A stretch of 32,959 nt of DNA from an uncultured Bacteroidales bacterium (lineage in GTDB: Bacteria > Bacteroidota > Bacteroidia > Bacteroidales > FEN-979). Position numbers and translations under genes: made by a program. The stretch covers positions 1 to 32,959 of the forward strand of contig CAIYES010000477.1 of the NCBI GenBank assembly GCA_903925275.1, in the 5' to 3' direction. Positions 1 through 27,805 of the stretch are shown here, in pieces. Position 1 is the stretch's first letter. Each line of letters begins with the position of its first letter. A model generated the notes under the pieces. The model was not told the DNA's origin and ran no database searches. It worked only from the letters and a program-made list of their open reading frames with translations.

Positions 1-26
1 TATTTTTTTATATCAGATTATATAAC

Positions 27-650
27 ATGAGCACTATACAACCATTGGAATACGATTCATACTTTCATATATACAATCGTGGTATAAATGGTGAAAACTT
101 GTTTCGCGAAGACACTAACTATGAACACTTTTTGAGACTTTATTATAAATATATTGAACCCGTCGCTGAAACATACGCATGGTGTTTGATGAAGAATCAC
201 TTTCACATACTTGTTCGTATATTACCGGAAAATGAGATTGAATATATGAGAACAATTGATGGTGTTCATCGTATTGTTCAACACCCGAAACGATACGACC
301 CATCTCGGCAATTTGCACACCTCTTCAATGCCTATGCAAAAGCATTTAACAAAAAGTATGGGAGAACCGGAGGTTTGTTTGAAACCCCTTTCCGGAGAAA
401 GAAGGTTACCGATGAAAGGTATTTAAAAAAACTGGTATTTTATATCCACAACAACCCTGTAAAACATGGATTTGCTTTAGGTTTAACAGATTATCCATGG
501 TCTTCATACCTGTCGATTATTTCACTCATGCCAACAAAAACCAAGCGGGATAAAGTGGTGGGCTGGTTCAATTCGAAATCGGAATTTATTGAATATCATG
601 CTCGAAAGCAGGAAACTGGAAATTTTATACCATTTGAACCGGAGGATTAA
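27..650 (+). CDS. REP-associated tyrosine (Y1/HUH) transposase, RAYT type
   Basis: Predicted single-strand DNA transposase/endonuclease of the IS200-related Y1 superfamily. These enzymes nick hairpin-forming single strands through a tyrosine-DNA intermediate. Seen directly: the HUH metal-binding motif as HFH at residues 58-60 in the context KNHFHILVR, and the probable catalytic Tyr139 in FYIHNNPVK, which matches the YIHxNPV signature of the RAYT branch. At 207 aa it is the usual full length. RAYTs are normally single-copy and domesticated, associated with palindromic REP sequences rather than with insertion-sequence ends. No flanking IS ends are visible, but REP-like palindromes occur at 9871-10004. 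The gene converges on the HD-domain gene, with only 43 bases between the two stop codons. Confidence 0.9.
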   Translation: MSTIQPLEYDSYFHIYNRGINGENLFREDTNYEHFLRLYYKYIEPVAETYAWCLMKNHFHILVRILPENEIEYMRTIDGVHRIVQHPKRYDPSRQFAHLFNAYAKAFNKKYGRTGGLFETPFRRKKVTDERYLKKLVFYIHNNPVKHGFALGLTDYPWSSYLSIISLMPTKTKRDKVVGWFNSKSEFIEYHARKQETGNFIPFEPED

Positions 651-693
651 AATAAAATATTTAACCACTGACGGGTCTGAAAGGCTCCCCCCC

Positions 694-1308
694 CTACAAA
701 AACTCGGGATACTTAATAAAATTCATCCGCTTCCTCCGCTTTTCAATCAAATCCTTCAGCTCGATGGCCATGTTCTTGTTTACCTCGAGGGCCATCGGGA
801 GGACATACATTTCTGTCTCTTTCAACATGGTTGTCATTTTCTTTTTTGTATAGTCGTCACGGTGCAGGTCGGTCAGGTTGCTGATCCGGTCGGCTACTTT
901 CAGGATTTTTGCATTGCGGGAGCCATGTTCCAGGATTTTCTTCAAATAATCGGCTTTTACTACGCCTTTGAGCCTCGTCACCTCCAGCACCAGATTCACC
1001 ACTTCGTTGGCCTGGTCATCGATTCGCCTGAGTTCATCCTGATTGGTATCGGGGATGTCCTCAATAAGATCGTGAATAACCGCAGCTTTCAGCAATACAT
1101 AATCGTCAAACAGCTTATAATCAAGCAGAATGGCCATGGTAGCCAAGGCATGGCGAAATGCGTTCCCTCCAACATTCCTCGGATTGCCGATAAGCGCAGT
1201 GGCTTTAATGATATAAGGCGCCAATACAAGATTCCTTAATTTTTCGATATCTTCCATTTTTTTAATTTTTATAGGTAAATTCACTAATTTGCATAGCTGC
1301 TGAATCAT
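694..1308 (-). CDS. HD-domain phosphohydrolase, RelA/SpoT (MESH1-like) hydrolase type
   Basis: Small stand-alone HD hydrolase resembling the (p)ppGpp hydrolase half of RelA/SpoT enzymes. Visible motifs are His53 (FRHALA), His79-Asp80 followed by Glu83-Asp84 (HDLIEDIPDT, the HDxxxED pattern of SpoT/MESH1), and Asp140 in KVADRISNL. Together these form the metal site and the ADRxxNL element of the family. There is no synthetase or regulatory domain, so the 204-aa protein would only degrade its substrate. Probable activity on alarmones or related nucleotides is inference from the family. The longest start (ATG at 1308) lies 18 bases after the 53-aa gene; an internal ATG at 1257 (MEDIEKL) is also plausible because family similarity begins near there. 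It is the probable last gene of the sigma-54-driven train. Confidence 0.8.
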   Translation of the reverse strand: MIQQLCKLVNLPIKIKKMEDIEKLRNLVLAPYIIKATALIGNPRNVGGNAFRHALATMAILLDYKLFDDYVLLKAAVIHDLIEDIPDTNQDELRRIDDQANEVVNLVLEVTRLKGVVKADYLKKILEHGSRNAKILKVADRISNLTDLHRDDYTKKKMTTMLKETEMYVLPMALEVNKNMAIELKDLIEKRRKRMNFIKYPEFL

Positions 1309-1311
1309 TTT

Positions 1312-1326
1312 CAGCGATAATCGCTG
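1312..1326. repeat. Perfect 7-bp dyad between the 53-aa gene and the HD gene
   Basis: CAGCGAT-A-ATCGCTG reads the same on both strands apart from the central base. It sits exactly in the 18-base gap between the two minus-strand genes. The loop is too small for a classical terminator and no T-run follows, so an operator-like dyad or RNA-processing signal is possible. Function is unknown. Confidence 0.4.
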
Positions 1327-1488
1327 TTATTCCCATAGATAGTTTGGCCACCCGAAAAAATCCGCCGGAGATGGTTCTATCCTCTCCTCCATCCGGTAAA
1401 TCAGATATTCCACAGGCTGGTCATCGAAAACAAGCTCCGGATTCGATTCCGGGGGTTCCACCCGGAATAATGATATTTGCCAGTTCAT
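1327..1488 (-). CDS. Small hypothetical protein, 53 aa, in the MoxR/propeller gene train
   Basis: A short open frame that begins with ATG (1486-1488) 10 bases after the stop of the 778-aa gene and ends in TAA 18 bases before the HD gene. The peptide starts MNWQISLFRVEPPESN, contains an acidic/aromatic stretch (VFDDQPVEYLIYRMEE) and ends FFGWPNYLWE. It has no signal peptide or membrane segment and is rich in Pro, Glu and aromatic residues, unlike a random reading of non-coding sequence. I do not recognise the family. Tight spacing on both sides suggests it is co-transcribed and may be a small adaptor or inhibitor of the neighbouring proteins, which is inference from position only. Confidence 0.6.
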   Translation of the reverse strand: MNWQISLFRVEPPESNPELVFDDQPVEYLIYRMEERIEPSPADFFGWPNYLWE

Positions 1489-1498
1489 ACTTTTTATT

Positions 1499-3835
1499 TT
1501 AATCCTTTTTGATTAATTGATTTTGCATGTAAACAGGAAGCAAATCCCTGTAATGATCGGCTTGCTGGCCAATGGCAATCTCGGTTTCACGAGGGAATAT
1601 GATCCCATCCGGATCCGTGCTCCGGGCAGAGAGCCGTTTACGCATCTCAGCAATCTTTACCACCGGAAACCGGGTCAATGGCAGTAAAGCCAGACTGATC
1701 TTTCTTCTTTTAGCTTCTGCATGAAGTTTTCGCGATAACCGATATTTTGTTGGCGCAACCACGACTACCCGCTCCTTTGCAAAGGGAATGGCAAACTGGA
1801 TCAAGGATGTTTGCCAGTCGTCTTCATCAATATCCATCTGGTAAAGCCGCTGGTAGTCTTTGATCAGGCGACTTACACTGCTGTGATTGGTGACCGGGCA
1901 ACACCGGTAATCGTTGTCTTCTATCCAACAAGCTGATTGTCTGGCGTTTATACAAGGGTTTCCAAAAAGCGTAATTCCTTCGAGCATGTTCATTTCATCC
2001 ACATGTGGTTTTAAAGTCTGCGGCACCTTTATTGAATGATCCAGTGCAATGCTTGAGAAAAAAGTTGATCCATGTTTTTTGGTCACCTCCTCAAAACGCG
2101 ATTTATTTTTCACAAAACTGCCGATGTTGAGCCCCCCAACCAGAATTGACCATGATGATTGAAGGCCTTCCTCGTGGGAACAAAAGAGAAATACCGTAGG
2201 ATCAGGACTTTTGCCATTGGGGATGATGGTCGTTTTCGAAAAGGAGGGTTTCCTGATATAAATCCTGTTCTCCCCGCGTATGACCGAACGCATGGATGCC
2301 CTGGTGTCGAGTCCCTCGTAAAGCGATCCTTCAAACTGCGCGGAAATCGTTTCATTCGTATGAGCGGTTGCCATTTTTGCCGCTTCGTTTGCCGTACCAT
2401 ACAATAGCGCTTCGCACGGGGGCCACATCCATGCGGGTGTGTACGTATAACCGCCCTTTTCTTTTGGTTCGTCATCCCATTCCCAATGACGGAACACGTC
2501 ATGCCCGATCCGGTTCCCATGGCGGTAATGAACAGTAAAAGGATCCGATTTCTTTTTACAAACAGCACCCTTGTCATCACCACCCTGTTCTACTTCATTT
2601 AACTGACATTGCTGGTCAATCACCGGTGACTTTAAAACGCTGATTCCGACCGGTGCATTTGAAATCAGCGGTAACCCCGGAAACTGAGCCGGAGTAGCCC
2701 ATGGCCGCCCGATATCCATCAGTTGTGCAAAAAGTATTTTCGAAAAGTCAGTTGACATTATTGACGCTGCCACCGCACCCAATGTTGCCATCGAGGGTAC
2801 GCCCTGATGCGCAATCAACCTGGTGGAGGAGAGCAGCCTCTCAAATTCAGGAATTTTTCCATAATCAGGCACCAGGGAACCTCCCAATACATTTTGATGT
2901 GTTTCATCGTAGAACTTCAAGTATGTTTTATCGAGGATTTTGCGAATCAGCTGGCCGGCATCTGCCAATGGGGCAGATTCGCTGCAATGAACCGATGGAT
3001 GATGACGGCAGTTTTCGTACAATGTTGAGAGCGCCGGGTAAACATCCATAAACCTCAGGGCAATGAAGGGGTGCAGCAGCACACGGGATATTTTTGGCTG
3101 TTGCTCAGGCACCAGGATGTCAGCCTGTCTGATCTCCGGTGAGGTCAGCAGTTGCCTTATCTTTTCCCAATGCGCAAGTCCACAGGTGAAAAGAACCTGT
3201 TTATGCATTGACAATATGGTTTTCAATCGGGCGGCCATCACGGTTTCCCGCCTGTCGTCGACATAGGGATCGCGTGCCCTGGCGGCAATTTTTTCATTTT
3301 GCATCACATATTGCTCAAGATCAAATGCCGGGGTGGATGGATCCTCCAACAGGAGTTGTTCTTCTTCTCCCATCGAACATTCATCCATATCAATCCCGTA
3401 AACCGGAATGCCGAGTTCAATCGCACAGCGAATCGCTTCAATGATTGAATCGGTGGATGAAAGCCCAACAACATGCTTTGCGGAAAAGTGAAGAAAATGC
3501 TTCAATATTACCGGATCGATATTCCGGAGGGGTTCCTTGTAACGCTGCTGCAGAAAGAAAACGGTATTCCGGAAATCAGGATGGATTAACCGGTTTTCCG
3601 CAATCAGTCCGATCATGCAGGGTAAAATAATCCTGCCACTGGGACCGAAGCCCATTTCCTCCATCCATATAACAATTTCTTTTACCAGGTGAACGCCAAG
3701 TTCCACGGCAATGGCATCAGGTCGTGTGGCCTCATGAGCACAAAGGCGATTGACCTCCTTTGCAAAAACAGCCCTGTAGTGCATGGCCGGAACGGCCCGC
3801 AGAGTACTTCCGTTGATCGCTATTGTTGGTTCCAT
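1499..3835 (-). CDS. Large protein with N-terminal TraB/GumN/Tiki-like domain and unknown C-terminal two thirds
   Basis: The first ~235 residues look like the TraB/PrgY/GumN/Tiki superfamily, whose Tiki members are metal-dependent proteases. A PAMH motif (16-19) stands where the family has GxxH, and is followed by the PDAIAVEL strand with Glu45. A late Arg-rich helix (DDRRETVMAARL, 193-204) and a second GLAH motif (219-222) on the strand VLFTCGLAH complete the pattern. Residues ~240-778 show no domain I recognise. They include a Trp/Pro-rich patch (WMWPPCEALLYGT) and a C-terminal segment with an alternating strand/helix look (RVVVVAPTKYRL). No signal peptide or membrane helix is seen, so it is probably cytosolic. 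It starts 3 bases after the MoxR stop, consistent with translational coupling. The TraB assignment is by motif inspection. A von Willebrand A domain, which often accompanies MoxR, is not visible. Confidence 0.6.
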   Translation of the reverse strand: MEPTIAINGSTLRAVPAMHYRAVFAKEVNRLCAHEATRPDAIAVELGVHLVKEIVIWMEEMGFGPSGRIILPCMIGLIAENRLIHPDFRNTVFFLQQRYKEPLRNIDPVILKHFLHFSAKHVVGLSSTDSIIEAIRCAIELGIPVYGIDMDECSMGEEEQLLLEDPSTPAFDLEQYVMQNEKIAARARDPYVDDRRETVMAARLKTILSMHKQVLFTCGLAHWEKIRQLLTSPEIRQADILVPEQQPKISRVLLHPFIALRFMDVYPALSTLYENCRHHPSVHCSESAPLADAGQLIRKILDKTYLKFYDETHQNVLGGSLVPDYGKIPEFERLLSSTRLIAHQGVPSMATLGAVAASIMSTDFSKILFAQLMDIGRPWATPAQFPGLPLISNAPVGISVLKSPVIDQQCQLNEVEQGGDDKGAVCKKKSDPFTVHYRHGNRIGHDVFRHWEWDDEPKEKGGYTYTPAWMWPPCEALLYGTANEAAKMATAHTNETISAQFEGSLYEGLDTRASMRSVIRGENRIYIRKPSFSKTTIIPNGKSPDPTVFLFCSHEEGLQSSWSILVGGLNIGSFVKNKSRFEEVTKKHGSTFFSSIALDHSIKVPQTLKPHVDEMNMLEGITLFGNPCINARQSACWIEDNDYRCCPVTNHSSVSRLIKDYQRLYQMDIDEDDWQTSLIQFAIPFAKERVVVVAPTKYRLSRKLHAEAKRRKISLALLPLTRFPVVKIAEMRKRLSARSTDPDGIIFPRETEIAIGQQADHYRDLLPVYMQNQLIKKD

Positions 3836-3838
3836 GGC

Positions 3839-4762
3839 TTATCCGGTTTTGGTTGCACGATCGGTAAATAACTTGTGAAAAGCGCTTTCAAGATGAGCAG
3901 GCCTGATGCCGGTATGGGATAACTCCTTCGGGATTTGATACGAATTGTATGCCTTTGCAGCCATATAGGCACCGTCTCCTCCTGCTGTATCATAGGCGCT
4001 CAGTTTTGAAGCAAGCCCGAAAAGATAGATTGCATCGCGGGGCGCAATATTGCCAAATGTATTCGTATGTTCTTCCCACAGCGCCCAAAAGAGGTCTATC
4101 AGATGATCCACCTCTTTTTTCATTCCGGTGCATTGGTTGCGGATGATGTTGTCTATCTCCGATTTGGCCGGATAACCAATGTCGATCTGCGGACGCATCC
4201 GGGAAAGGATAAACTCAGGCAGCAGATTGATATCATTGGTATTGGTGGCCGCCACAAACCGGAACCCCGGATGGGCATGGATCCGCTCGCCTAATAGCGT
4301 GGAATCAATGTAGCGACGCTCATCAAGCACACTCACCAGCAGCGCCAGCGCCCTTGGACGGATCTTGCCGATCTCGTCAATAAAACAGATCCCCCCATTG
4401 TACATGGCCGTCACCAGTGGCGAGAGCATGTAATCCATTACATTGGCACTCTGATCGCTGAACCTCACTGAACAAGCAAGATCCTCGGCTGTGACATCTT
4501 CATGCCCCTGGAAAATATACAGCTGACTTCCCGTCTTTTGTGCACGTTCATAAATCAACCTGTTCTTTCCTACTCCCGGTTCCCCGATCAGCAATGGGCT
4601 CATCGGCAGCGAATAATCACCCGAGATCCAGGCTGCAATGATCATTCTGAGTTCGGATTCCCTTCCAACAAACCCGCTGAAGAAATTTGAAGCAGGTTCA
4701 AAAGGCTCACTTTGAAACACATTCTTGTTTCCGATTGAAATTTTTCGTTCTGTTGTTTTCAT
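3839..4762 (-). CDS. MoxR-like AAA+ ATPase with non-canonical Walker A
   Basis: MoxR/RavA-type AAA+ ATPase, a chaperone-like remodeller that usually acts with partner proteins encoded beside it. Features in order: an N-terminal FVGRESEL segment (31-38), Walker A GEPGVGKN (60-67), Walker B CFIDEI (126-131) followed by a long insertion-type helix, sensor 1 ATNTND (172-177) and a probable arginine finger near Arg188 (ILSRMRP). The residue after the Walker A lysine is Asn67, where nearly all AAA+ proteins have Thr or Ser to coordinate Mg2+. The codon is AAC, read directly. This could weaken hydrolysis and favour nucleotide-dependent switching. At 307 aa the length is normal for MoxR. The gene lies 39 bases downstream of the WD40 gene and 3 bases upstream of the TraB-like gene, in one train. 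Confidence 0.85.
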   Translation of the reverse strand: MKTTERKISIGNKNVFQSEPFEPASNFFSGFVGRESELRMIIAAWISGDYSLPMSPLLIGEPGVGKNRLIYERAQKTGSQLYIFQGHEDVTAEDLACSVRFSDQSANVMDYMLSPLVTAMYNGGICFIDEIGKIRPRALALLVSVLDERRYIDSTLLGERIHAHPGFRFVAATNTNDINLLPEFILSRMRPQIDIGYPAKSEIDNIIRNQCTGMKKEVDHLIDLFWALWEEHTNTFGNIAPRDAIYLFGLASKLSAYDTAGGDGAYMAAKAYNSYQIPKELSHTGIRPAHLESAFHKLFTDRATKTG

Positions 4763-4801
4763 TTGTTACAGTGTTAGTGGTTGGTTCATTTTTATGACTT
4801 A

Positions 4802-6082
4802 TCAGGTTGTTTTATTAAAAGATTCAGGAATTTGGAACATCTCCCGGTTTGAATAGGCTGACGACTTGATTTCGGGATCTTTCAAACCAAATAAATCCCT
4901 GATCACATTCAAGTTGTTGCGCGAGTTCGCAAGGTATTGCCCGAACTGCAATTCAGCCTGCTCGTTTGTATCCGCTTTAACCACCTTGATCAGATTGAGA
5001 TCACTGGTGTAAAAGGATGAGCGGTTTTCAGAAATATAGGCGTAGGATTGATCCATCACATGGATTTTCCCCTTTGGAATGACATTCCGGGGATCACTGA
5101 TATCATAGACCCAAAGGGCTCCATTCACCCCTCCGGTGATCATCATGTTGCCAATCGTGGTGATACTCCATAAGCAACTCTGCTCCACTTCGGTGGAAGA
5201 AAGTATTTCCAAATCTGGCAATTGCAATATTTTTAAATTTCCATCGTACCCTGAAGTCAGCAATATCCTCTGATTTTCAGGATGACCCATGATGTGCATG
5301 ATTTTGTTCTGATATGCTTTAACGATGCGGATCAATTTTAGCTTTGATGCATCAAACTGATAAATATTGCCGCTGTTTCCGGTTACCAGGATTATATGCA
5401 TCAGGGGAATCACGCACAATGATTGCAACTCCTCGCTGCAGCGATATTCGTGCACTATTTTCCCCGTCGCACAATCAATCACATGAAAATAACCACTGTT
5501 GGATACCGCATAGAATTTACCCTGGAAAATCAAACAGGAACCGCACCGGTAGCTGCGAAGATGTTCGCCCGGCAACCTGATGATCCTGTTCAGTGAACCA
5601 TCGCTCATCGACCACTCTCTCACCGTATTAGAAGTGCAGGCAGGATCTTTATCAGAATCGTATGAATACGAATACACAGTCCTGAAATCAGATGAAACGA
5701 TTGCTTGCGGACAACGCCCCATTGTCTTTTCAGTCAGCACCATCTCCAGCACCAGGGAATTAAAGTCTGTTATACAAACGGTTCCATCCCAGCTGGCCGT
5801 AATAATTTTATGGTTGACAACCACTACACTCCTTACAGTGGTTGAATGGTGATCAAACCAACGGATTTTTCCCGTCATAAGATTGATCACATGAACCTTG
5901 CTGCTATCGGTATGGGATACCAGAAGGGAATTTTCTTCCTGATAATAAAATATTGACCTGGTACCGGAAGATATTTCCCTGGTATTCAAATTAAAACGGT
6001 AATCATTACAAAGATGATCCGAAAAAGTTTTCCGGTAGATTGTTATCGCCTTATGTTCCTTGTTTTGCAGTATGGGTAGCAT
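4802..6082 (-). CDS. WD40-type beta-propeller protein
   Basis: A 426-aa protein made mostly of WD40-like repeats. Recurrent blade signatures include HSTTVRSVVVVNHKIITASW (TASWDGTV), SNTVREWSMSDGS, AVSNSGYFHVIDCATGK, VTGNSGNIYQFD, LTSGYDGNLKILQLPD and ITGGVNGALWVYDI. This suggests a six- to seven-bladed propeller over about residues 50-335, with a non-repetitive tail that ends in FQIPESF. No signal peptide is seen. Propellers of this kind act as protein-binding scaffolds or sensors. Next to a MoxR ATPase it recalls the general MoxR plus beta-propeller combinations described in predicted conflict systems, but I cannot assign it to a named family. It starts 19 bases downstream of the first gene of the train. 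Confidence 0.85.
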   Translation of the reverse strand: MLPILQNKEHKAITIYRKTFSDHLCNDYRFNLNTREISSGTRSIFYYQEENSLLVSHTDSSKVHVINLMTGKIRWFDHHSTTVRSVVVVNHKIITASWDGTVCITDFNSLVLEMVLTEKTMGRCPQAIVSSDFRTVYSYSYDSDKDPACTSNTVREWSMSDGSLNRIIRLPGEHLRSYRCGSCLIFQGKFYAVSNSGYFHVIDCATGKIVHEYRCSEELQSLCVIPLMHIILVTGNSGNIYQFDASKLKLIRIVKAYQNKIMHIMGHPENQRILLTSGYDGNLKILQLPDLEILSSTEVEQSCLWSITTIGNMMITGGVNGALWVYDISDPRNVIPKGKIHVMDQSYAYISENRSSFYTSDLNLIKVVKADTNEQAELQFGQYLANSRNNLNVIRDLFGLKDPEIKSSAYSNREMFQIPESFNKTT

Positions 6083-6101
6083 AGGATTATTTTTTTACGG
6101 A

Positions 6102-7514
6102 TTATTGCCCTGGATCAGGCGTTTTAATTCCTTCCCCTGATTTCATTTTCATTATATCCTTGATCTCCTGCTGAATTTTAATAATCTGTTCGTCAATAAA
6201 ATCCAACTCCTTATCAAGACAGCTTTGATGAATGCCGGCCATATCATCAGCCAGGATGTTATTCAGTTTAAAATCTGTATATCCATGTGCCCTCATTGTT
6301 GCTGCCATCTCATCAAATTCTCTGCTACAATCTTTCAAAATCTCAGGAGTAAAGAAAACCAGTCGGGTTCCCATATCCAGTGCCCAATTACCGCTTGTAA
6401 CGTCATCCAGACCATGTGTTTTCCTGTAAACAGTGATTTCAGCGAAAAGGTGCACCATGCGCATGTATTTGATCAGCGTTTCATGAACCTCAAAGACAGC
6501 ATCATTGTATATTGAATTTGCCGACATAAACATCCTGTTTAACTCGTGAAACGAAGGTTCATTGACCATAGAATTATGAATTTCACAACAGTTTTTCGAA
6601 ACGGCCCTGTAAAGAAATCTGATCCTGTTGTTCAGCCATGTTTTTACACTTGCCGAACCCGGACGGTCAGTTTCTTCCGTTCGCTGTTGTTTCAAACCCT
6701 GGGAATGATTGTTTTTTACCCGGTATTTCACAAAGCATTCATACACGAATGCATCCAGTTCTTCCTCTGTTTTTATATTGGGGTTGTATGACATTTCCCT
6801 CTTTCTTTCATAATGGGATAATATCCCCTCCTTTAAATGTAATTTTTTCAAACTCGCACTAAATTTTTCCTTGTAAAGGGAATCGATCCGTTCGATAAAA
6901 AGGAGCTCACCAAGCGCATGTTCGCCCAACTTCATCAATTCAAACCGCTGGCGCAGCGATTCCATCTCTTTTTGGCTGATCCCCTTGAATTGCATGACAT
7001 CAATTGATTCGCTATTTTTCACGGAAATCCGGATCAACTGGTTTATGAGGATCGTGTAAACCAATGATTCGAAAGATACATCATCCAACCCGGTATGTTT
7101 TTTCTTCAGTTGATCCCAGGCATGATTGAGTCCGATCAGGTAATGATCCAGTTTTTCGTAAAAACCGGAAACAAGTGAGCCATTTTTGTTTTGAAGAAGA
7201 ATGGTTCCTGTTTCAAACAACTGGTGAGGCCTGAGATGACTGGTCATAAACATATGACCCTCAAAAGCATTTTTCACCAGCAGGACGGCGGTTTGGAAAA
7301 CCGTGAAACCTTTGTAGAAAGATTCTTCGATCACCTCCGTTGCATTGAACATCAAATGAAAAGTTGGAATAGCTGGTAGTTGAACCGGTGTGTCCGGTGA
7401 ATCTGACGATTCCTGAATGCATTGATCCAATCTTTCCTGTAACATATTGGAACGATCGTCTGAAAGATCTTGAAAAACTGGAAAATAATCAGGGGTAAGG
7501 TTTCTGGTATCCAT
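6102..7514 (-). CDS. Unrecognised, mostly helical protein; first gene of the sigma-54-controlled train
   Basis: I do not recognise this protein. From the ATG at 7514 (MDTRNLTPDYF) it is 470 aa. It is rich in long amphipathic helices, with no transmembrane segment or signal peptide, and ends in a Lys/Glu-rich coiled-coil-like stretch (DEQIIKIQQEIKDIMKM). A low-complexity linker (QQRTEETDRPGSAS) divides it into two halves. The open frame extends back to 7643, but the sigma-54 element at 7600-7615 would put the transcription start near 7589. The upstream ATGs at 7643 and 7616 therefore lie before or within the promoter, and the ATG at 7587-7589 falls at the transcript end. The 7514 start leaves a leader of about 75 bases. 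It may be an adaptor or effector for the MoxR/propeller proteins; this is inference from position. Confidence 0.65.
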   Translation of the reverse strand: MDTRNLTPDYFPVFQDLSDDRSNMLQERLDQCIQESSDSPDTPVQLPAIPTFHLMFNATEVIEESFYKGFTVFQTAVLLVKNAFEGHMFMTSHLRPHQLFETGTILLQNKNGSLVSGFYEKLDHYLIGLNHAWDQLKKKHTGLDDVSFESLVYTILINQLIRISVKNSESIDVMQFKGISQKEMESLRQRFELMKLGEHALGELLFIERIDSLYKEKFSASLKKLHLKEGILSHYERKREMSYNPNIKTEEELDAFVYECFVKYRVKNNHSQGLKQQRTEETDRPGSASVKTWLNNRIRFLYRAVSKNCCEIHNSMVNEPSFHELNRMFMSANSIYNDAVFEVHETLIKYMRMVHLFAEITVYRKTHGLDDVTSGNWALDMGTRLVFFTPEILKDCSREFDEMAATMRAHGYTDFKLNNILADDMAGIHQSCLDKELDFIDEQIIKIQQEIKDIMKMKSGEGIKTPDPGQ

Positions 7515-7599
7515 GTTTTCAGAGGTATTTAAATAATTATTACTTTTATTGAACGGAATTGCTGCAAGCGCATATTTCCAAGGGATCATACATATAGAA

Positions 7600-7615
7600 T
7601 GCAAATTTAATGCCA
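7600..7615 (-). promoter_or_regulatory. Sigma-54 (RpoN) -24/-12 promoter driving the MoxR/propeller train
   Basis: On the minus strand the sequence reads TGGCATTAAATTTGCA. The sigma-54 consensus is TGGCAC-N5-TTGCW, and the spacing between the invariant GG and GC is exactly 10 bases here. It lies in front of the six-gene minus-strand train. The divergent gene at 7739 encodes a sigma-54 activator-type AAA+ protein, which makes a chance match unlikely. The predicted start site is near 7589. Confidence 0.8.
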
Positions 7616-7738
7616 TGTTTTTAATGATTTGTATATCAATCATTTAAATCATTTCGTGGTTGAGTTAAAAGGGTTGACTTATTCAAATTTCAAAGGATTT
7701 ACTGTTGATTTGGTTCTGTTTTATAACACTTACGCACG

Positions 7739-9412
7739 ATGAAATTTTTACTGTATTCTAAAAAATCTGATAAACCGGATAAGCCTTCTCTGGTAGAATT
7801 TGAACCAGGCCAAAACAAACAGCTTACGGAGTTTTGTTCTCAATATGGCACGTTGTGCCTTATTTCGCCAGCAACATTTGATTCAATTCAAAAGTCAATT
7901 GTCGATGCCGGATTTATTGATTGCCGTGAAAAGGGGAAAAAAATCAATCTTTACCGTGCATTGCGATTTGACGAGAAACGGGAGCGCAGCCATCCCAGGT
8001 ATCTAATATTTGACACTGACAATAAAGGAGCGTTTAAACGAGGATTCGATGCTTTTTATACCCGGCACTTTAATCATCACGATCCACCATGCATCATCAT
8101 CATTCAGGATGCGATCCTGGAAGCCCTGATCAGGGATGAAAACAAAAAAACAAATTCCCCTCCTAAAAAAGCCACTGCCGCTAAAGATGATTCACTTTTC
8201 CTGCTGATTGACGTCCCTGAGTCAACTGATGTCATTAAAAAACTCGAGGGAGTGTATATTGGCGATTCAATCCAGGCAAAACATACCCGCGCACTTATTT
8301 ACCGTGCCGCTCAAACAGATTCTCCCGTGCTGATCCTGGGGGAATCGGGAACAGGAAAAGACGTAATCGCTCATCATATCTACAAGTATTCCCGAAATTA
8401 TCAAAAAGGATTTTTCCGGGTCAACTGCTCGGCATTGCCCGAGACACTGATCGAAAGTGAACTCTTCGGATATCTCAAAGGCAGTTTTACCGGAGCCGGT
8501 GCAAATAAAAAAGGGTTGTTTGCAGTGGCCGAAGGAGGAACAATTTTCCTTGATGAGATCGGGGATCTTTCGCTTGCAAACCAGGCCAAAATCCTTCATG
8601 CGGTGGAAAAACAGGGGATCCGCCAGATCGGCTCCAGTCATAACACGCCTGTTGATATCAGGATTATCGCTGCTACCAACAGGAATCTTGATGCCATGAT
8701 GATGAGTCAGACTTTCAGGGACGATCTGTACTACCGCATCAGTACATTCCGCATCACTTCATCGCCCTTGCGCGAACATCCCGAAGATATTCCATTGCTT
8801 GCACAAGCATACTGGAAACGCAAACCGCACGATGGAATCCTTTCACAAACATTTCTGAATTACCTGAAAAGTTACCATTGGCCGGGCAATGTGCGCGAAC
8901 TATATTCCCTGCTCAACAGCCTGAGAGATTATTTCGGTGATATCTCACCAACAGTGGCGCATGTGGATGCCATCAGAAAATCACGGCAGGAGGTTCTCAC
9001 CGAGTCTAAAATTCTCAATCAGGATGATCCTACTCAACTCCTGAACATCAGGAGCAAGAATATTCTCATCAGCGTTCAAAACATTCTCCGTTCTATCAAG
9101 ATCGGGATGAGGCCCATCATCAACAGGCAGGCAGGGGAATTAACCGCAATGAATGATCTGAAAAACCTGAAACAATTTATTGGTCAGCAGGTAGACACCC
9201 TGAATGAATTATGCCTCGAACCTACCTATTTTAAAAGTTGGGTTCTTTTCAAGGAAATTACCCGTTACCGGTATGTCCTGGATAAAGCCTTCAAAAACTG
9301 GCCTGATGGTACGGAACAACTCAGGGATATCTGGATCTCTGATCTTCAGCAACTCGATGATGACATCAACAAGGGAATCCTGGAAATCATCTGGGGGAAG
9401 ATTGATATGTAA
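7739..9412 (+). CDS. Sigma-54 activator-type AAA+ protein (bEBP-like) lacking a recognisable HTH
   Basis: Bacterial enhancer-binding-protein-like ATPase that should remodel the RNA polymerase-sigma-54 closed complex. The central AAA+ domain (~170-400) has Walker A GESGTGKD (201-208), ELFG plus the sigma-54 contact loop GSFTGA (248-253; GAFTGA is canonical), Walker B GGTIFLDEIGDL (266-277), FRDDLYYRI (327-335) and WPGNVREL (381-388). The N-terminal ~150 residues match no receiver, GAF, PAS or CARF pattern that I can see and are the likely sensor. The C-terminal ~150 residues are helical but lack the usual Fis-type helix-turn-helix, so it may act without specific enhancer binding or use another DNA-binding fold. 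It is divergent from the train whose promoter is sigma-54 type, so it is the probable activator. The gene starts with ATG at 7739; its own promoter was not clear. Confidence 0.88.
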   Translation: MKFLLYSKKSDKPDKPSLVEFEPGQNKQLTEFCSQYGTLCLISPATFDSIQKSIVDAGFIDCREKGKKINLYRALRFDEKRERSHPRYLIFDTDNKGAFKRGFDAFYTRHFNHHDPPCIIIIQDAILEALIRDENKKTNSPPKKATAAKDDSLFLLIDVPESTDVIKKLEGVYIGDSIQAKHTRALIYRAAQTDSPVLILGESGTGKDVIAHHIYKYSRNYQKGFFRVNCSALPETLIESELFGYLKGSFTGAGANKKGLFAVAEGGTIFLDEIGDLSLANQAKILHAVEKQGIRQIGSSHNTPVDIRIIAATNRNLDAMMMSQTFRDDLYYRISTFRITSSPLREHPEDIPLLAQAYWKRKPHDGILSQTFLNYLKSYHWPGNVRELYSLLNSLRDYFGDISPTVAHVDAIRKSRQEVLTESKILNQDDPTQLLNIRSKNILISVQNILRSIKIGMRPIINRQAGELTAMNDLKNLKQFIGQQVDTLNELCLEPTYFKSWVLFKEITRYRYVLDKAFKNWPDGTEQLRDIWISDLQQLDDDINKGILEIIWGKIDM

Positions 9413-10157: not shown

Positions 10158-10708
10158 ATGAAGAAGTCCCTTTCCAGCATCCTGTTTTTGTTGTTCATCC
10201 TTCATGTCCAAACCATTTCGGCACAATGGACATGGCAAAACCCGCTGCCAAACGCCCATCCCCTTTGGTCGGTCACTTTTGTTAATGAAAATACCGGGTA
10301 TACCACCAGCGACCTTGGAACAATAAAACGCACTGATGACGGAGGTCAGACCTGGACGATTCAAAACAGCGGAACGACCAATACCCTCAGGGATGTGTCA
10401 TTTGCCGACACTGATCAAGTATTAACCAGCAAACGATGAATTTCCAGACAATTAATTTATCACAAAATTTTTAAAATCCGTTTCCAATGAGCACTACCAT
10501 CGAATATTCCATAAAACAGAAAGAGCAGATCAGGATTTCACTGTTTGACATGTATGGCAGGGAAATCAAATTATTTCTTGATGAGATCAAAAGTTCAGGG
10601 AATTACTCGCTGAGCATTGATCCTGGGGAGATAAAACCCGGTGTGTATTTTTATCGCGTGAAGGCCGATGAAGGAATTATTTATAAGAAGCTGATTTTAG
10701 GTCGATAA
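10158..10708 (+). pseudogene. Gutted T9SS-secreted YCF48/BNR-repeat protein (both ends, no middle)
   Basis: Two pieces of what looks like one secreted protein. From 10158 an ATG opens a signal peptide (MKKSLSSILFLLFILHVQTI, cleavage after SAQ) followed by one YCF48/BNR-type repeat (LWSVTFVNENTGYTTSDLGT, then KRTDDGGQTW), and the frame stops at 10439. From about 10478, in a different frame, NPFPMSTTIEYSI begins a type IX secretion C-terminal sorting domain with LFDMYGREI and GVYFYRVKADEG, ending KKLILGR at 10708. Intact relatives carry many repeats between these ends. The shift in frame, a stop just before NPF, and the missing middle point to internal deletion. The sorting domain indicates a Bacteroidota host. 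Confidence 0.75.
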
Positions 10709-11289
10709 AATCTTTTCATCAGATTTTCCAGATATCTGAAATAATATAATTTGATTGAGCGCCATCATGCCAGTGATGGATTTGGTCAGCAATCAGCCAC
10801 GAAAGCGCTGGTTCTTTTTTAACCGGTCTTTTAGTAATTTTAGCCTTTTACTGGTATGATTGTACCCAATCAGTTAATATAAAATCGTAAAATCAAAAAA
10901 AATGAAGGTAATCAAATTAATACTACCTCAGGTTTCGGGATAAACCACAATTCATAATAATTACTATCTATGCGGCTTTCCGGGCTTTTTCTGTTTGAAG
11001 ACAATCAGCGGTAAAAGGAATAAATGGGTTCTTAAATCGATGGATATTATTGATTGAAAATAATTTTGCCGCCAGGAAGCCAAAATTCGAACAACTCTAA
11101 TCCTATTACAATTATTTTTGCATCTTAGCAAATTAGCTGTGATCAGTTGTTTGATAAGCAGGCAGATGTTTGACAATTACATATGCTTTACGGATTTTTG
11201 ATATTACTTTTGAGGGCTTTTAGCATCATGGTCTACTGATGCAAGAAACACTGCGAAAATGTTTAGCACCCTGATGATTGAATAATCTT
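10709..11289. other. Gene-poor spacer, possibly with a decayed gene start
   Basis: No complete gene is visible. At 10902-10943 an ATG preceded by an A-rich leader opens a frame of only 13 codons (MKVIKLILPQVSG) and then stops, which may be the start of a lost gene. The rest is AT-rich, with scattered TAnnTTTG-like boxes, including a better one at 11182-11212. Confidence 0.4.
11182..11212 (+). promoter_or_regulatory. Candidate Bacteroidota promoter for the first phosphoesterase gene
   Basis: A perfect -7 box TACTTTTG at 11205-11212 is preceded after 19 bases by TATG (11182-11185), one mismatch from the -33 TTTG element. It lies about 78 bases before the ATG at 11290. Confidence 0.4.
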
Positions 11290-11967
11290 ATGGCCAGAAA
11301 ATTTGTTATCGGTGATATCCATGGTCACTATTCCGAAATGATGGAGCTTTTTGAAGCCGTCAGATTCAATTATAGTGAGGATTTGCTTATCAGTCTTGGT
11401 GATGTGGTTGACCATGGACCGCAGCCGGTTGAGGTGATCGAGAAGTTGCGGACAATCCGGAATTTCAGACATGTTCTCGGAAATCATGATGAGTGGTGCT
11501 ATCAGTACCTTAAATATGGCCGGAAGCCTGAAATCTGGACGCTTCAGGGAGGTCAGTCAACTGTTAAAGCTTACATTGATTGTCAGGTGTTTAAAACAAC
11601 CCACCTGCATTTTTTTGAAAAGGCCAGCTTATATTACGTGGATCCGGAATCGAGGCTTTTCGTACATGCAGGATTTGACTGGAAAATGCCATTTGAGAAT
11701 CAAAAGGAGGACAAGGAGATCCTCCTCTGGAACAGAACCTTGTTTGCGGCAGCTTCCGTTTATCAACGTAACGGTTTAACTTTTGACGAATTTGCAGAGA
11801 TCTTCATCGGCCATACCCCGACTCAGCTTTTAGGCGAAACGTTGCCAATTCACAATTCGAATGTCTGGATGATGGATACCGGGATTAGCTGTGGAGGGAG
11901 ACTGACCATCATGGATATTGAAACAAAAGAATACTGGCAAAGTGGATGTGAGTCTGATATTGATTGA
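11290..11967 (+). CDS. Calcineurin-like metallophosphoesterase, PPP (PrpA/ApaH-like) type
   Basis: Cytosolic metal-dependent phosphatase of the PPP superfamily, which contains bacterial Ser/Thr phosphatases and ApaH-like diadenosine polyphosphatases. From the ATG at 11290 the motifs are GDIHG (8-12), GDVVDHG (37-43) and GNHDEW (64-69), then HAGFDW and GHTP near the C-terminus, covering all metal-site residues expected. At 225 aa the length is normal. An in-frame TTG at 11278 would add four residues, but the ATG directly before the conserved first strand (KFVIGDIHG) is preferred. The substrate cannot be told from sequence. A second, only distantly similar phosphoesterase follows 170 bases downstream on the same strand. 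Confidence 0.88.
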   Translation: MARKFVIGDIHGHYSEMMELFEAVRFNYSEDLLISLGDVVDHGPQPVEVIEKLRTIRNFRHVLGNHDEWCYQYLKYGRKPEIWTLQGGQSTVKAYIDCQVFKTTHLHFFEKASLYYVDPESRLFVHAGFDWKMPFENQKEDKEILLWNRTLFAAASVYQRNGLTFDEFAEIFIGHTPTQLLGETLPIHNSNVWMMDTGISCGGRLTIMDIETKEYWQSGCESDID

Positions 11968-12100
11968 TACAGATACCTGTTTTCACCAATAAGAACCAAA
12001 TCTGCGGCTTCCAGTGGTGGCAGATCAAAGGAGGCTACTTTAAAGAATCATTTAATTCGAATCTGTTTTGCAATTTTTCCGGATTCATCTAAATATCAAG

Positions 12101-12137: not shown

Positions 12138-12827
12138 ATGAAAATTATTACCATCGGAGATCTGCATGGTTCACCGGTCTGGAAAAACATCCAACCTGGT
12201 GATTGGGACCACATGATTTTCATCGGCGATTATGTTGATTCTGCTGATTATACTGATAAGGAGATCAGGCAAAACCTGAAGGAGATTATTGATCTGAAGA
12301 AGATGTACCCGGGAAAGGTAATCCTGCTGTGGGGGAACCATGATCTTTCTTATTTATACAGAGGACATGAACCTCATAATACATCAGGATTCCGCAAAAA
12401 GGTATTGCCAGCCTATTTCTCACTGTACACGGCCAACCGTAATTTATTTCAGGCTGCATTCGGCATCAATAAATATCTTTGGACTCATGCCGGAGTTGTT
12501 CAAAAGTGGTTTAATGATTACATTACCGGAGAAGTAATACCTTCTGATCAAGGTTTGGCAGACACGTTCAACCGGTTATTCGATGCTTATTATCAACCTC
12601 TCTTTCATATTGGGAAACTCAGGAATGGACAGCATGAGGAAGGTGGAATTTTTTGGGCACACAAATATGAAACAGAAGATGACCCCTTGATGGGGTATCA
12701 CCAGATCGTCGGGCATACCAGGACCAGAACAGGAGTGCTTGTTTCAAATCATTATGGGGCTGATACTTCGTTAACCTGGGTGGATTGCTTGGAGACTGAA
12801 ACTGAATTTTTTAAACTTGGTCTTTAA
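12138..12827 (+). CDS. Calcineurin-like metallophosphoesterase
   Basis: Second PPP-superfamily phosphoesterase. Motifs are GDLHG (7-11), GDYVDS (30-35), GNHD (66-69), THAGV in the middle of the protein and GHTRTRTG towards the end, so the dinuclear metal site looks complete. It has 229 residues with no signal peptide or membrane helix. Similarity to the upstream phosphatase is limited to the motifs, so this is not a recent tandem duplication. A -7 box sits at 12101-12108, so it may be transcribed separately. The gene is convergent with the MFS gene that ends at 13018. Protein phosphatase or dinucleotide hydrolase activity are both possible; sequence alone does not decide. Confidence 0.85.
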   Translation: MKIITIGDLHGSPVWKNIQPGDWDHMIFIGDYVDSADYTDKEIRQNLKEIIDLKKMYPGKVILLWGNHDLSYLYRGHEPHNTSGFRKKVLPAYFSLYTANRNLFQAAFGINKYLWTHAGVVQKWFNDYITGEVIPSDQGLADTFNRLFDAYYQPLFHIGKLRNGQHEEGGIFWAHKYETEDDPLMGYHQIVGHTRTRTGVLVSNHYGADTSLTWVDCLETETEFFKLGL

Positions 12828-15787: not shown

Positions 15788-18700
15788 TTAATTGGTTAAA
15801 AATGTTATTTTTTTGAGATAATTTAAAATTAACTTCAGGTAGTCATCATATTTTTCCGGAAAATAAAAACCCGATGAATGCAATTTTTCCTTGACTTCTC
15901 CGGAATTCCAATGGGAAAAAGTCTTCCATTCTCTGGTCATGATGTCTTTCCTTTCCCTCAAATAAAATTCCCGGATTGGATACATGGCATTTTTTTCATC
16001 TGCCATTGCAAGGTGTTTGTCCTTCCAGATATTTACAGGAAGAAGTTCTATTTTAAATCCGCAGCTTTCAATTAATTCAATATATTCCCGCCAGGTGATC
16101 TCATATGGATTGTTCATATTGTAGATATGAATCCCATGGGAGTTTTTCGCCAGATGAATAATGGCATCGGCAAGCATATCCACCGGTGTCATTTCTACTG
16201 ATCTCTTCCAATCAGGCGCTGCTTCCATTTGAATACATCCTTTCATGAGTAGTAGCGCATGATTTTTTTCGGGCGCACAGATTCCTTCTTTGCTGTCGCC
16301 GGTGATGTTTCCGGGTCTGAAAACATTAATGTCAATGCCATGGACATTGCTTATTATTTTCTCTGACACCCACTTGCTTAAGATGTACCCGTTCGTTGAC
16401 AAAGGCGAATCTTTAGAATCAACCTCTAACTGAAATCCGTTGGCATCCCTGATACTTGCCACACCCAAAGTCGAAATATAATTGAGGGTTTTCTTTTTAC
16501 CGGTTGCAGCAATTTTAAGAAGCTCCACTGTAGATAAAACATTGGACTTTCTCAACGTATTGTAATCGTACATGTGATGAACCATAGCTCCCGAATGATA
16601 GATGGAATCAATTTTTTCATTCATCATTTCCAGGGTTGCATCATCCATCCCCAATTTTTTTTCTGCTAAATTTCCAATTACAAGTTTTACGCTCGGATGA
16701 TTTTTTAAATATTCTTTTTTATACAAATCAAGTGTTGCTTCATAAAGACGCCGAATATCCTCCTGGTCCTTGCCTCTCACCAGGCAATAAATGTCAGCTT
16801 TAGTTTTCTTAATCAACCCATCAAGAAGATAAACTCCTAAAAATCCGGTGACACCTGTAAGGAGTATGGAAGCTGGCTCTTTTTCTCTTTTTGATATAAT
16901 GTTCTCAGTCGAGACTACTGTTTCAGCGTCCTTAAGCGCTATACTTAAATTGTTTTCGGATGCGCCGGAAGTTATTCCTGTACCGTCAATAAAAGCAGCC
17001 AGGTAGGCGATAGTAGGCTGGGCGAACATTTGAGATATATTCACATCTGCGCTAAGTTTCCGCTTTACACTTGAAAGCATTCTCACTGTGAGAATGGAAT
17101 TACCTCCTATTTCGAAGAAGTTATCGTTGACACTAATTTTGTCGAGTTTTAAAAGTTCTTTCCATATTTCTGCCAGCGTAATTTCTGTGAACGTAACCGG
17201 ATGGTTATATTTTCTTTTAGAAGACATTATATCTTCCAATTTGGGCGTTGGGAGCTTACTTCGGTCAACTTTAAAATTGTTGTTTAGTTTGAATGATGCC
17301 ATCTTTATAAAAGCCGTTGGGATCATGAATTCCGGAAGCTGACGGGCAAGGAAAGTTTTCATATCTACCTGCGCTACAGCGTTTTCCCTGGGAACCCAGT
17401 ATGCAATAAGTTGTTGATTCCAGGGAATTACCACACATTGTTTTACCTCTTCATGTCTGAGAAGGACAGCTTCAATCTCCTCGGGTTCGATTCTGAAACC
17501 GCGTATTTTCACCTGGAAGTCTGTGCGTCCGAGGAACTCTATATTCCCATCCGGCAGCCATCTTACCAAATCACCTGTCCGATACAGGCGGGTATTTATA
17601 TTCTTTTCTTTATGCTCTTTTGAAACAAAGGGATTCTCAATAAACCGCTCTTTTGAAAGTTCGGGTCTGTTCAGATAGCCAATTGCAAGAGAATCTCCGC
17701 CTATATAAAGTTCTCCCGGAACGTCCACAGGCAGAGGGTTTAACTTATTATCCAGCACATAGGCGGTATAATTGTGAAGTGGCTTCCCGATAGGTATCAC
17801 ATCGCTGTCTTTATATTCATCCGTCAAGAGACAGGAAGTACTGAGACAAGTACATTCCGTAGGTCCATAACCGTGAATTACATTAAGTGTGGATGGTTTT
17901 ACCTCAAGTAACTTTTTTACCGTACTAACATTTACGGCCTCTCCCCCAAACAATACCGATTTTAACGAATAGAATATCTCTGCATCACAGTCCACAATTG
18001 CATTAAACAGGGCTGTGGTGAACCAAGCAGTTGTAACCTTATTATCGGATATTTCCTTTTTCAACAAATCGAGATTCTCAATTTTGTTACTGTCAATAAT
18101 GACTAATTTCGCACCTGAAAGTAAGGCGCCCCAGAATTCATAAATGGAAGCGTCGAAGGCATAAGTTGAACATTGGGCAATAACATCATCTTCTGTAACT
18201 ACATCAGTTTTAATGCTGGTAACGAAATTGGTAACCGCACGTTGAGGTATCGTCACTCCCTTGGGGTTACCTGTTGAGCCTGAAGTATAGATGATATAAG
18301 CGATATCGTTGGCACTTATTTTATTGCCGGGGTTTTTATCGGAAAAATCAACTTTATCAGAAGCTTCTGTATCAAGCGGGATGACTATTCTTTCTTCCTC
18401 TGCAAGAAAAGTCAATTCCTCCATCAGCTTGTTTTGCGTCAGGATTACCTTTAACGCAGAATCTTCCATGATAAACCGGAGGCGGTTTTCAGGATAATGA
18501 GGCGGTATCGGAACGTAAGAACAACCAGATTTGAGAATACCCAACAAGCCTATCAGCATATCAGGGCAACGTTCCATGCAGATTCCAATATTATTGTTTG
18601 ATACTCCGTCAAAGGAACCAGGATGGATTTTATTCAACCTATGTGCTAATTTGTTGGCTTCTTCATTTAATTTTTGGTAAGAAAGTGTTTTGCCGTTATG

Positions 18701-25807: not shown

Positions 25808-26003
25808 GATTTATATATAATACGAAATATCAACGATTTGATGAAATTTCTATAATTGTTCTTAAATTCTTTATACGTTTTCTGTCATATTTTGTTTCAT
25901 ATGTTAATAATTCCTATTTCAATGGTCATATGGAATACCCATAATTATCATTCACGGTTTGCATGAACTTTATTCTTATGGGTATTTCATAAAAGAAATT
26001 GCC

Positions 26004-26420
26004 TCATTTTCCAAAGAAATCCCGGTTTAATGTTGAATCTATCAACTCCCTCAGCACTTTCATATCGATATCCGCCAGCTTGTTTATGTATAGGCAACCA
26101 ACACCAGTTTTATGCTTGCCTAACTTTTCAAGTGTGGCAGTATGCTGCTTAATGTCTCCGCAAAGGTACAATGACAGATTCGCCTTACGGGGTGAGAAAC
26201 CGATCCGTAACCAATCAACTTCACGCCCGGTTGCAGGGCTTTTAATTCTCACATTGCCAAAGCCGATGAGTGAACTGCCCCACATTTTCGGCTCCTCCCC
26301 TGTTGCTTCCTTCATCATTTCCAAAAGCACGAAACTATCTTTACGCTTTTGTTCTTCCCGAATACCATTGATAAAATCCTCAACACTTGCAGCGTTTGGT
26401 TTTGTTTTTATTTCAACCAT
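26004..26420 (-). CDS. DUF1801 (YdhG-like) domain protein
   Basis: A 138-aa soluble protein of the DUF1801 family. It shows the N-terminal helical part with VEDFIN and KRKDSFVLLEMMKEATGE, the central PKMWGSSLIGFG turn, IGFSPRKANLSLYL, and the LGKHKTGVGCLYINKLADI segment typical of this family. The family has a YdhG/FrataxinCyaY-like fold and no settled biochemical role. It is intact, with an ATG start. It sits between the repeat/transposase block and hsdR and is not a known restriction component. It may simply be a passenger gene. Confidence 0.85.
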   Translation of the reverse strand: MVEIKTKPNAASVEDFINGIREEQKRKDSFVLLEMMKEATGEEPKMWGSSLIGFGNVRIKSPATGREVDWLRIGFSPRKANLSLYLCGDIKQHTATLEKLGKHKTGVGCLYINKLADIDMKVLRELIDSTLNRDFFGK

Positions 26421-26528
26421 TTGAAATTATTGTTTGTTTGATGATTGTTGCGTATAATTTGTATAAAGTTTGATGGATTCATCTATCCTGTTGATCCTTT
26501 TCCCGTTTAATCCAATGTATACCGATTT

Positions 26529-27096
26529 GCCCTGAAAGGGCAACATCAATAACACAGGGCAACGTCCTGTGACCCGCTGCCCTGAAAGGGCGACATCACT
26601 AACACAGGGCAATGTCCTGTGACCCGCTGCCCTGAAAGGGCGACATCACTAACACAGGGCAACGTCCTGTGACCCCCTGCCCTGAAAGGGCAACATCACT
26701 AACACAGGGCAACGTCCTGTGACCCCCTGCCCTGAAAGGGCAACATCAATAACACAGGGCAACGTCCTGTGACCCGCTGCCCTGAAAGGGCAACATCAAT
26801 AACACAGGGCAACGTCGTGTGACCCGCTGCCCTGAAAGGGCGACATCAATAACACAGGGCAACATCCTGTGACCCCCTGCCCTGAAAGGGCGACATCAAT
26901 AACACAGGGCAACGTCCTGTGACCCGCTGCCCTGAAAGGGCGACATCACTAACACAGGGCAACCTCCTGTGACCCGCTGCCCTGAAAGGGCGACATCACT
27001 AACACAGGGCACCGTCCTGTGACCCACTGCCCTGAAAGGGCGACATCAATAACACAGGGCACCGTCCTGTGACCCGCTGCCCTGAAAGGGCGACAT
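26529..27096. repeat. Tandem array of 50-bp units, 11 full copies plus a partial twelfth
   Basis: Units start every 50 bases from 26529 to 27079 with the palindrome GCCCTGAAAGGGC. Each then holds (C/A)GACATCA-like sequence, a second dyad ACAGGGCAACGTCCTGT and the spacer GACCCGCT or a variant. Copies differ by only a few bases. The two hairpins per unit resemble a BIME/REP layout. The array ends five bases before the transposase stop codon. It is not a CRISPR, because there are no unique spacers. Confidence 0.95.
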
Positions 27097-27100
27097 CTTT

Positions 27101-27553: not shown

Positions 27554-27572
27554 GGGGTGTTCTTTTTATCCC

Positions 27573-27786: not shown

Positions 27787-27805
27787 GAACCTGTTGAGTT
27801 GTTGG

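Follow-up and report, generated by a model that had tools for sequence, protein, structure and literature searches.

A MoxR ATPase and a TraB-like protein as the apparent constant core of a candidate inducible system in an uncultured Bacteroidales bacterium

Introduction

Does a tightly packed train of genes facing a sigma-54-type regulator represent one fixed molecular system, or a smaller conserved machine with changing companions? The question is raised by a 32,959-nucleotide (nt) stretch of DNA from an uncultured Bacteroidales bacterium (GenBank assembly GCA_903925275.1, contig CAIYES010000477.1), referred to here at its full length as the window, in which an activator gene is divergent from a train of six minus-strand genes separated by gaps of 19, 39, 3, 10 and 18 nt. 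Counted from the activator, the train encodes a helical protein, a WD40 propeller, a MoxR ATPase, a TraB-like protein, a 53-amino-acid (aa) protein and an HD hydrolase. An initial annotation made from the sequence alone had read these genes as a single undescribed system under RpoN control, and all of them are present:

7739–9412, plus strand: sigma-54 activator (bacterial enhancer-binding protein, bEBP), 557 aa, with a variable N-terminal region and an AAA+ domain with a GSFTGA loop
7659–7677, minus strand: candidate activator binding site, two TCAAC half-sites 14 nt apart
7600–7615, minus strand: sigma-54 −24/−12 promoter-like site TGGCATTAAATTTGCA, the highest-scoring of 159 GG-N10-GC sites on both strands of the window
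6102–7514, minus strand: helical protein, accessory, 470 aa from the ATG at 7514 (513 aa from 7643 in the list of open reading frames)
4802–6082, minus strand: WD40-type beta-propeller protein, accessory, matching Pfam WD40/propeller families
3839–4762, minus strand: MoxR-type AAA+ ATPase, core, AAA_5 (PF07728, E 4.8e-21), P-loop GEPGVGKNR
1499–3835, minus strand: TraB-like protein, core, 778 aa, a TraB-like domain at about residues 1–280 followed by an uncharacterised C-terminal part
1327–1488, minus strand: 53-aa protein, solely the N-terminal FDD motif of a third core partner
694–1308, minus strand: SpoT-like HD protein (PF01966, E 2.5e-4), with a start more likely at 1257 (aa 18)

Comparison with related loci indicates, as far as sequence can, that the constant part is smaller than the initial annotation held: it consists of the MoxR ATPase and the TraB-like protein, usually joined by a third protein that carries the FDD motif. 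Pfam, NCBIfam and PADLOC recognise the activator (PF00158, E 1.7e-61 in Pfam), the propeller, the AAA_5 domain and, weakly, the HD domain, and the AAA_5-type AAA+ domain of the window MoxR is thus confirmed. The Pfam match of the WD40 protein is barely above its cut-off and that of the HD protein slightly under it (21.7 bits for a cut-off of 22), while the 778-aa and 53-aa proteins have no match in any of the three collections.

Results

Linkage of the MoxR and TraB-like genes

A profile built from three TraB-like proteins was searched against 84,980 species genomes and returned 23 loci, of which 13 are nearly full length (L008–L020) and ten cover the N-terminal part only (L021–L030); counts from this profile pattern scan are lower bounds. 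A scan with the 778-aa protein as a single sequence had given three stretches, none of them a relative. Together with the window and a second cluster in the same genome (L003, on contig C386), the 13 nearly full-length loci form a comparison set of 15 loci from 14 genomes (G040 is the record of L016). By their labels, the 13 come from Bacteroidota/Bacteroidales, Verrucomicrobia, Hydrogenedentota, Armatimonadetes, Nitrospirae, Acidobacteria, Accumulibacter, Chromatiaceae and Desulfosudis, and the family spans at least six phyla as labelled. The gene set is rare yet widely scattered: searches of 295 genomes of the order and 395 of the phylum found the TraB-like gene in two and one of them, respectively, with the window's own genome counted in both. 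Genomes that already have a TraB-like gene hold extra copies of it, full or partial, at G692:C90, G690:C141:2-1519, G694:C46 and G697:C67; one copy in the L015 genome is full length, a partial second one lies on the L013 contig, and the L017 and L020 genomes contain fragments.

In all 15 loci the MoxR gene lies directly upstream of the TraB-like gene (tblastn), although in L008, at a contig end, only its C-terminal part is preserved. Because these loci had been found by way of the TraB-like gene, we ran the search in reverse from MoxR across the 295 genomes of the order, scoring up to seven candidates in each genome: MoxR at E≤1e-20 was recovered in the same two genomes as the TraB-like gene, in three copies, each adjoining a TraB-like gene. 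Across 91 pairs from 14 loci, MoxR identity rises with TraB-like identity (r 0.71, Mantel p 1e-4), as is also expected for any linked, co-inherited pair. The P-loop ends in GKNR, and not in GK[ST], in all 14 MoxR sequences available; bEBPs with GKE are active ATPases.

The second cluster of the same genome shares the order activator (10424–12097, plus strand), MoxR, TraB-like protein and HD protein with the window, the last three on the minus strand, and carries a 355-aa protein between the TraB-like and HD genes. Identities between the two clusters are 63% for MoxR, 45% for the TraB-like protein, 66% for the HD protein and 36% for the activator, and the L003 HD protein begins at the position of the likelier window start. 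Both the helical and the propeller gene are missing from L003; the core thus tolerates accessory change, and activator and HD gene travel with it in this genome. The higher identity of the HD proteins than of the TraB-like proteins could reflect stronger constraint on the HD gene or a more recent exchange of it.

A second, shorter MoxR–TraB family was found among the ten N-terminal relatives, three of which have a MoxR gene directly before a TraB-like protein of 614–627 aa:

L028, 9164–11848: MoxR and shorter TraB-like pair, Helarchaeota
L029, 8869–11884: MoxR and shorter TraB-like pair, labelled only as a bacterium
L030, 9039–11830: MoxR and shorter TraB-like pair, Planctomycetota

Since these three loci and Escherichia coli YehM also have MoxR directly upstream, the pairing appears broader than the 778-aa family.

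The third partner and its FDD motif

The initial annotation had counted the 53-aa gene as a component of its own. Similarity and alignment instead identify it as the motif found at the N-terminus of a larger protein, the third partner, which 13 of the 14 other loci have. The sole feature common to these proteins is an N-terminal motif of approximately [LI]xFDDxP[LV]xxLLYG...PTPA, whose DD is invariant in all 14 third-partner sequences, that of the window included; the window protein is this motif and little else. An apparent extension of the 53-aa match beyond its stop codon proved to be merely the HD gene in the same frame. The third-partner gene is mostly downstream of the pair, on the opposite strand in L018 and upstream of MoxR in L019. 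In L008 the protein has just 155 aa; of two third partners given to Pfam, that of L014 has clear TPR matches and that of L003 none.

The TraB-like protein

The initial annotation's guess of a TraB/Tiki-like protein is moderately supported, for the N-terminus only. No member of the 15 exceeds the cut-off of PF01963 (TraB/PrgY/gumN), to which two match weakly (best E 0.0086), or that of DUF5682, to which one matches weakly (E 0.05). The shorter relatives provide a bridge: L021 matches the family profile at E 1e-20, and of the nine that were scanned several match DUF5682 (best E 9e-5) or TraB (best E 0.0014), none above cut-off, and two match neither. An hhalign comparison with four DUF5682 proteins, E. 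coli YehM among them, aligned residues 20–233 at E 0.004 but with a probability of only 8%, and a series of motifs (His, VE/IE, IxxA..PV..ID, REaxM, CGxxH) is in register with the DUF5682 proteins.

An AlphaFold2 (AF2) model from 14 sequences reached a mean predicted local distance difference test (pLDDT) of 77.9 and a predicted template modelling score (pTM) of 0.56. Its best match in the viral library BFVD is a TraB family protein (E 3.5e-4, prob 1.00), at a template modelling (TM) score of only 0.43 by target and a root-mean-square deviation of 15.8; its best match in the PDB is a Tetrahymena complex IV chain (1.6e-3). Twelve residues are invariant in all 15 members (H19, E45, D129, S130, E133, D149, R196, E197, M200, G219, H222 and W223), and we take the His/Glu residues to be a putative catalytic site, after the roles assigned in work on TraB/Tiki proteins. 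Although no single test is decisive, the combined evidence gives moderate support to a TraB-like N-terminal 280 residues with an intact predicted His/Glu site. Both the N-terminal similarity and the His/Glu signature are shared with TraB/PrgY/gumN (Tiki) proteins, from which the 778-aa protein differs in its much greater length, its constant MoxR partner and its Pfam scores below cut-off.

The activator and its candidate promoter

The predicted RpoN promoter of the train has a good candidate in the window, whose best −24/−12 site lies upstream of the first gene. Because this site would fall inside the 513-aa reading of that gene, the 470-aa reading from the ATG at 7514 is likelier. Candidate sites were scored with a consensus and weights of our own choosing; in 255,565 bases on both strands there were nine sites scoring at least 19.5, one of them within the window MoxR gene (19.5 at 4444, plus strand). 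Repeated promoter-scan matches in L003, at 4251 and at 12571–12607 (minus strand), fall on one and the same GC-rich string, which comes back every 18 nt.

The score of TGGCATTAAATTTGCA was matched by none of 500 shuffles of its intergenic region. For loci with an activator, the number of shuffles (of 500) that matched the best site was 0 in the window, 0 in L019, 4 in L015, 16 in L014, 48 in L003 and 52 in L009; for loci without, it was 11 in L011, 107 in L020, 109 in L018, 162 in L013, 207 in L010, 299 in L016 and 489 in L017, with L008 and L012 left out of the comparison. The six loci with an activator therefore have better sites than the seven without (one-sided Mann-Whitney p 0.004, a post hoc comparison). 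The TCAAC half-sites of the window precede the −24 element by 48 and 62 nt, and a pair with the same 14-nt spacing is common to the window and L009, 48 and 49 nt, respectively, from a TGGCAT element; none of 20,000 shuffled pairs reproduced this shared spacing. TCAAC pairs are also found in L003 (12 nt apart) and L019 (8 nt), and L011, in which no activator was seen, has no such pair.

Five of the six activator genes are divergent beside the core, and that of L019 is 8 kb downstream; the upstream DNA is cut off in L008 and L012, which affects the count. In an alignment with the five others, the window activator has GSFTGA at the position of the loop, and four have GAFTGA or a variant of one residue. 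RpoN itself is present in the genome as two parts on two contigs, each of which alone falls below the family cut-off. Sigma-54 control is thus supported for a subset of loci and not as a constant feature of the system.

The initial annotation had also compared the window with the RtcR-rtcBA operon, an analogy that holds for the ATPase domain alone. As in RtcR-rtcBA and in the RtcR-linked CoCoNuTs (PMC11090510), a sigma-54 AAA+ activator stands beside a presumed inducible operon, and in rtc as in the window it is divergent. Unlike those systems, other genes would be controlled here, and no alignment with RtcR extends beyond the AAA+ region: hhalign with E. coli RtcR covers profile positions 173–425, and the RtcR models of PADLOC and NCBIfam match the AAA+ part alone. 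Since the likeness is confined to the ATPase domain, a CARF-type RNA-damage signal is not supported.

Accessory genes and neighbours

The reading of the six genes as one fixed system did not survive the comparison. Neither the helical nor the window WD40 protein has a homologue in any of the other 14 loci (tblastn, E≤1e-3), the HD gene occurs in three of 15 (the window, L003 and L008) and the activator in six, so that the expected co-occurrence was borne out for MoxR and the TraB-like protein, with the third partner, but not for the propeller and helical genes. Across the 294 other genomes of the order, the helical protein gave just one weak partial match (G066, E 4.3e-4, 25% identity over part of a 784-aa frame), which lies in a protein of coiled-coil appearance by eye and was taken as chance. 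A HEPN identity for this protein was rejected (E 0.044, below cut-off, and no clear Rx4-6H by eye), and its AF2 model, made without an alignment, was not used (mean pLDDT 35.5). The HD protein also matches NCBIfam PRK11092 (E 4.2e-8), far below the model cut-off.

The accessory genes vary between loci. L009 and L011 carry short, mutually related propeller proteins 3′ of the third partner. Among 26 hand-picked proteins from the other loci given to Pfam, we found TIR proteins (L011 and L014), an nSTAND1-FGE protein (L018), a NACHT-TPR protein (L019) and protein kinases (L010 and L015), along with ordinary and unassigned proteins. RelA_SpoT-RyR proteins lie within about 10 kb of the core in L009 (7351–10059), L011 (16790–19408) and L014 (1201–3726), and in L011 and L014 they have an additional match to the SLOG-type LSDAT domain, which in L014 is below cut-off. 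The HD gene in three loci and RelA_SpoT in three others hint at a link to alarmones.

Several further features were noted near these clusters. A gene resembling a REP-associated tyrosine transposase (27–650, plus strand) adjoins the HD end of the window cluster. Related metallophosphoesterase genes lie near the cluster in the window (12138–12827, plus strand) and in L009 (5897–6592, directly 3′ of the third-partner gene). On the minus strand of the window, 15788–22723 encodes a 2311-aa protein resembling a nonribosomal peptide synthetase (two AMP-binding domains, one condensation domain and a terminal reductase-type domain) with adjoining genes for a GMC oxidoreductase and a major facilitator superfamily protein. 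A type I restriction system occupies 23474–31255 of the same strand, 14 kb from the cluster, with HsdR-like, HsdS (two specificity stretches) and N6 methylase genes, a YhcG/DUF1016 PD-(D/E)XK nuclease, and interspersed DUF1801 and Y1-transposase genes. In L003, the stretch 21–3169 encodes an AAA ATPase and, after it, small proteins, of which two resemble metal-dependent peptidases by eye.

Comparison with known MoxR systems

The nearest known relative is E. coli yehL-yehM-yehP-yehQ, which encodes a MoxR ATPase, a DUF5682 protein, a VWA protein and a SWIM protein. As in YehL-YehM, the MoxR gene is directly followed by one for a large TraB-like protein, and the N-terminal motif series can be aligned in register. 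The differences are considerable: MoxR is 25% identical to YehL over 127 aa, the YehL P-loop reads GEPGTAKS where the family has GKNR, no VWA or SWIM gene was found beside the window core, and the present family instead has an FDD partner and, in part of the loci, a sigma-54 activator. The DUF5682 model matched its E. coli positive control and nothing in the 14 genomes. No functional paper on E. coli YehL-YehM, and no paper at all on DUF5682, was found in the open-licence literature, nor was any named MoxR-TraB system (titles and the starts of abstracts); no description of a co-inherited MoxR/TraB-like set was found there, in keeping with the initial annotation's view of the combination as one it did not recognise.

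A vWA partner was sought with PF05762 and PF13519 (E≤0.001) and compared by eye; neither model has a match on the 16 contigs that carry a full-length TraB-like copy, some of which are short. vWA genes do occur elsewhere in these genomes (PF13519 in 14 of 14, PF05762 in 8 of 14), and because several cluster contigs are short, a distant vWA gene is possible. Nor is there support for a concealed vWA domain in the C-terminal region of the TraB-like protein: the invariant columns include no conserved DxSxS, and the listed PDB structure matches include no vWA protein; one viral protein named as vWA appeared at E 1.5.

Discussion

To the question of what the locus encodes, our favoured answer, to which we give an even chance, is an inducible, vWA-free MoxR/TraB-like system of conflict or stress with exchangeable accessory genes. 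The linkage, the co-divergence, the active-site-like pattern and the promoter-like and repeat elements are properties of the sequences, whereas the function is what we infer from them. The operon would remain silent until the variable N-terminal region of the activator senses a signal, and the activator, bound to TCAAC sites about 50 nt upstream, would then open the sigma-54 promoter. The TraB-like protein would hold the position that a vWA protein has in other MoxR systems, and the MoxR ring could remodel it so as to activate its conserved His/Glu hydrolase site or to load it on a target; the FDD motif would be a docking peptide connecting MoxR and the TraB-like protein. In this genome recognition or scaffolding may fall to the helical and propeller proteins, and the SpoT-like HD enzyme might tune the level of alarmones or keep the response within bounds. 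The most likely role would be conflict with phages or other elements, or a response to damage.

A bolder form of this answer, which we offer as tentative, is a MoxR machine of a new class, with a TraB-like metallohydrolase in the place of the vWA co-chaperone. The ATPase ring would gate a hydrolase or protease by way of a short FDD docking peptide, and the whole would serve as an inducible immune or damage device with lineage-specific sensors and effectors (propeller, TIR, SpoT-like HD). If it were true, the window would show that a docking peptide alone suffices without the rest of the third partner.

A number of observations weigh against the favoured answer. The activator was seen in just six of 15 loci; that of L015 has no GAFTGA-type loop, and that of the window has no C-terminal helix-turn-helix among its Pfam matches at E≤1. 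L003 and L009 show an imperfect −12 element, no TCAAC pair accompanies the activators of L014 and L015, and a fair site occurs in L011 although no activator is visible there. The third partner was not found in L020 and is cut down to 53 aa in the window; the AF2 model of the TraB-like protein superposes loosely on its BFVD match and found nothing in the PDB at E≤0.001; and the correlated divergence of the pair would accompany any linkage. The neighbours of conflict type are suggestive only, since they were hand-picked with no comparison to random loci. Plasmids and phages were searched with no match to the system, and there is therefore no direct sign of a mobile defence gene.

The alternative that best withstands the evidence is a housekeeping or stress chaperone, in which MoxR matures a complex or inserts a cofactor in the manner of CbbQ, NorQ and RavA, with the TraB-like protein as its adaptor. 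The MoxR profile is closest to midasin, then to NorQ and CbbQ, among solved structures in the PDB, and these proteins serve in assembly or activation. The chromosomal location of the E. coli relative yehLMPQ and the missing plasmid and phage copies fit as well. Beyond the core and the activator, however, no protein family occurs in more than five of the compared loci (E 1e-4), so that no conserved client gene is seen beside the cluster, and the patchy distribution, the exchange of accessory genes and the immune-type neighbours of several loci argue in the same direction. On balance we regard this alternative as possible but doubtful.

Far less probable is that the window holds an already described MoxR-vWA-beta-propeller ternary conflict system whose vWA gene was overlooked. 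According to PMC7159879, a vWA co-chaperone is observed for the MoxR sub-clades, dynein apart, and a beta-propeller subsystem that combines MoxR with propeller and TPR-type parts is named for Bacteroidetes, Planctomycetes, Verrucomicrobia and Proteobacteria, a range (that of subsystem 4) into which MoxR plus a propeller in a Bacteroidota-type genome would fit. The same text gives the GXXXTAKS P-loop as frequent, though not strict, in the propeller and FtsH ternary systems. The present family has GKNR in its place, a TraB-like core and no conserved propeller gene; the bpMoxR model PF20030 reaches 12 bits (E 0.11) against a cut-off of 27, and none of the 16 cluster contigs, some short, gave a vWA match. 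That the train is a chance gathering of unrelated genes, as the inconstant helical, propeller and HD genes might suggest, is the least probable explanation of all and is already refuted for the core by the second cluster of the same genome with the same core order and by the MoxR/TraB-like linkage in 13 other genomes and in the reverse search.

Under the favoured answer, a conserved MoxR pair that does without vWA and works with a TraB-like enzyme would widen the rule that ties MoxR to vWA proteins. Given how widespread MoxR ATPases are, such a pair would also give a handle on E. coli YehL-YehM, with which the family shares the logic of its pair; its mode of action may resemble that of a MoxR-adaptor system. 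The FDD motif, all that the window retains of the third partner, is a testable candidate docking peptide, and gating by sigma-54 would offer a route to the inducing signal.

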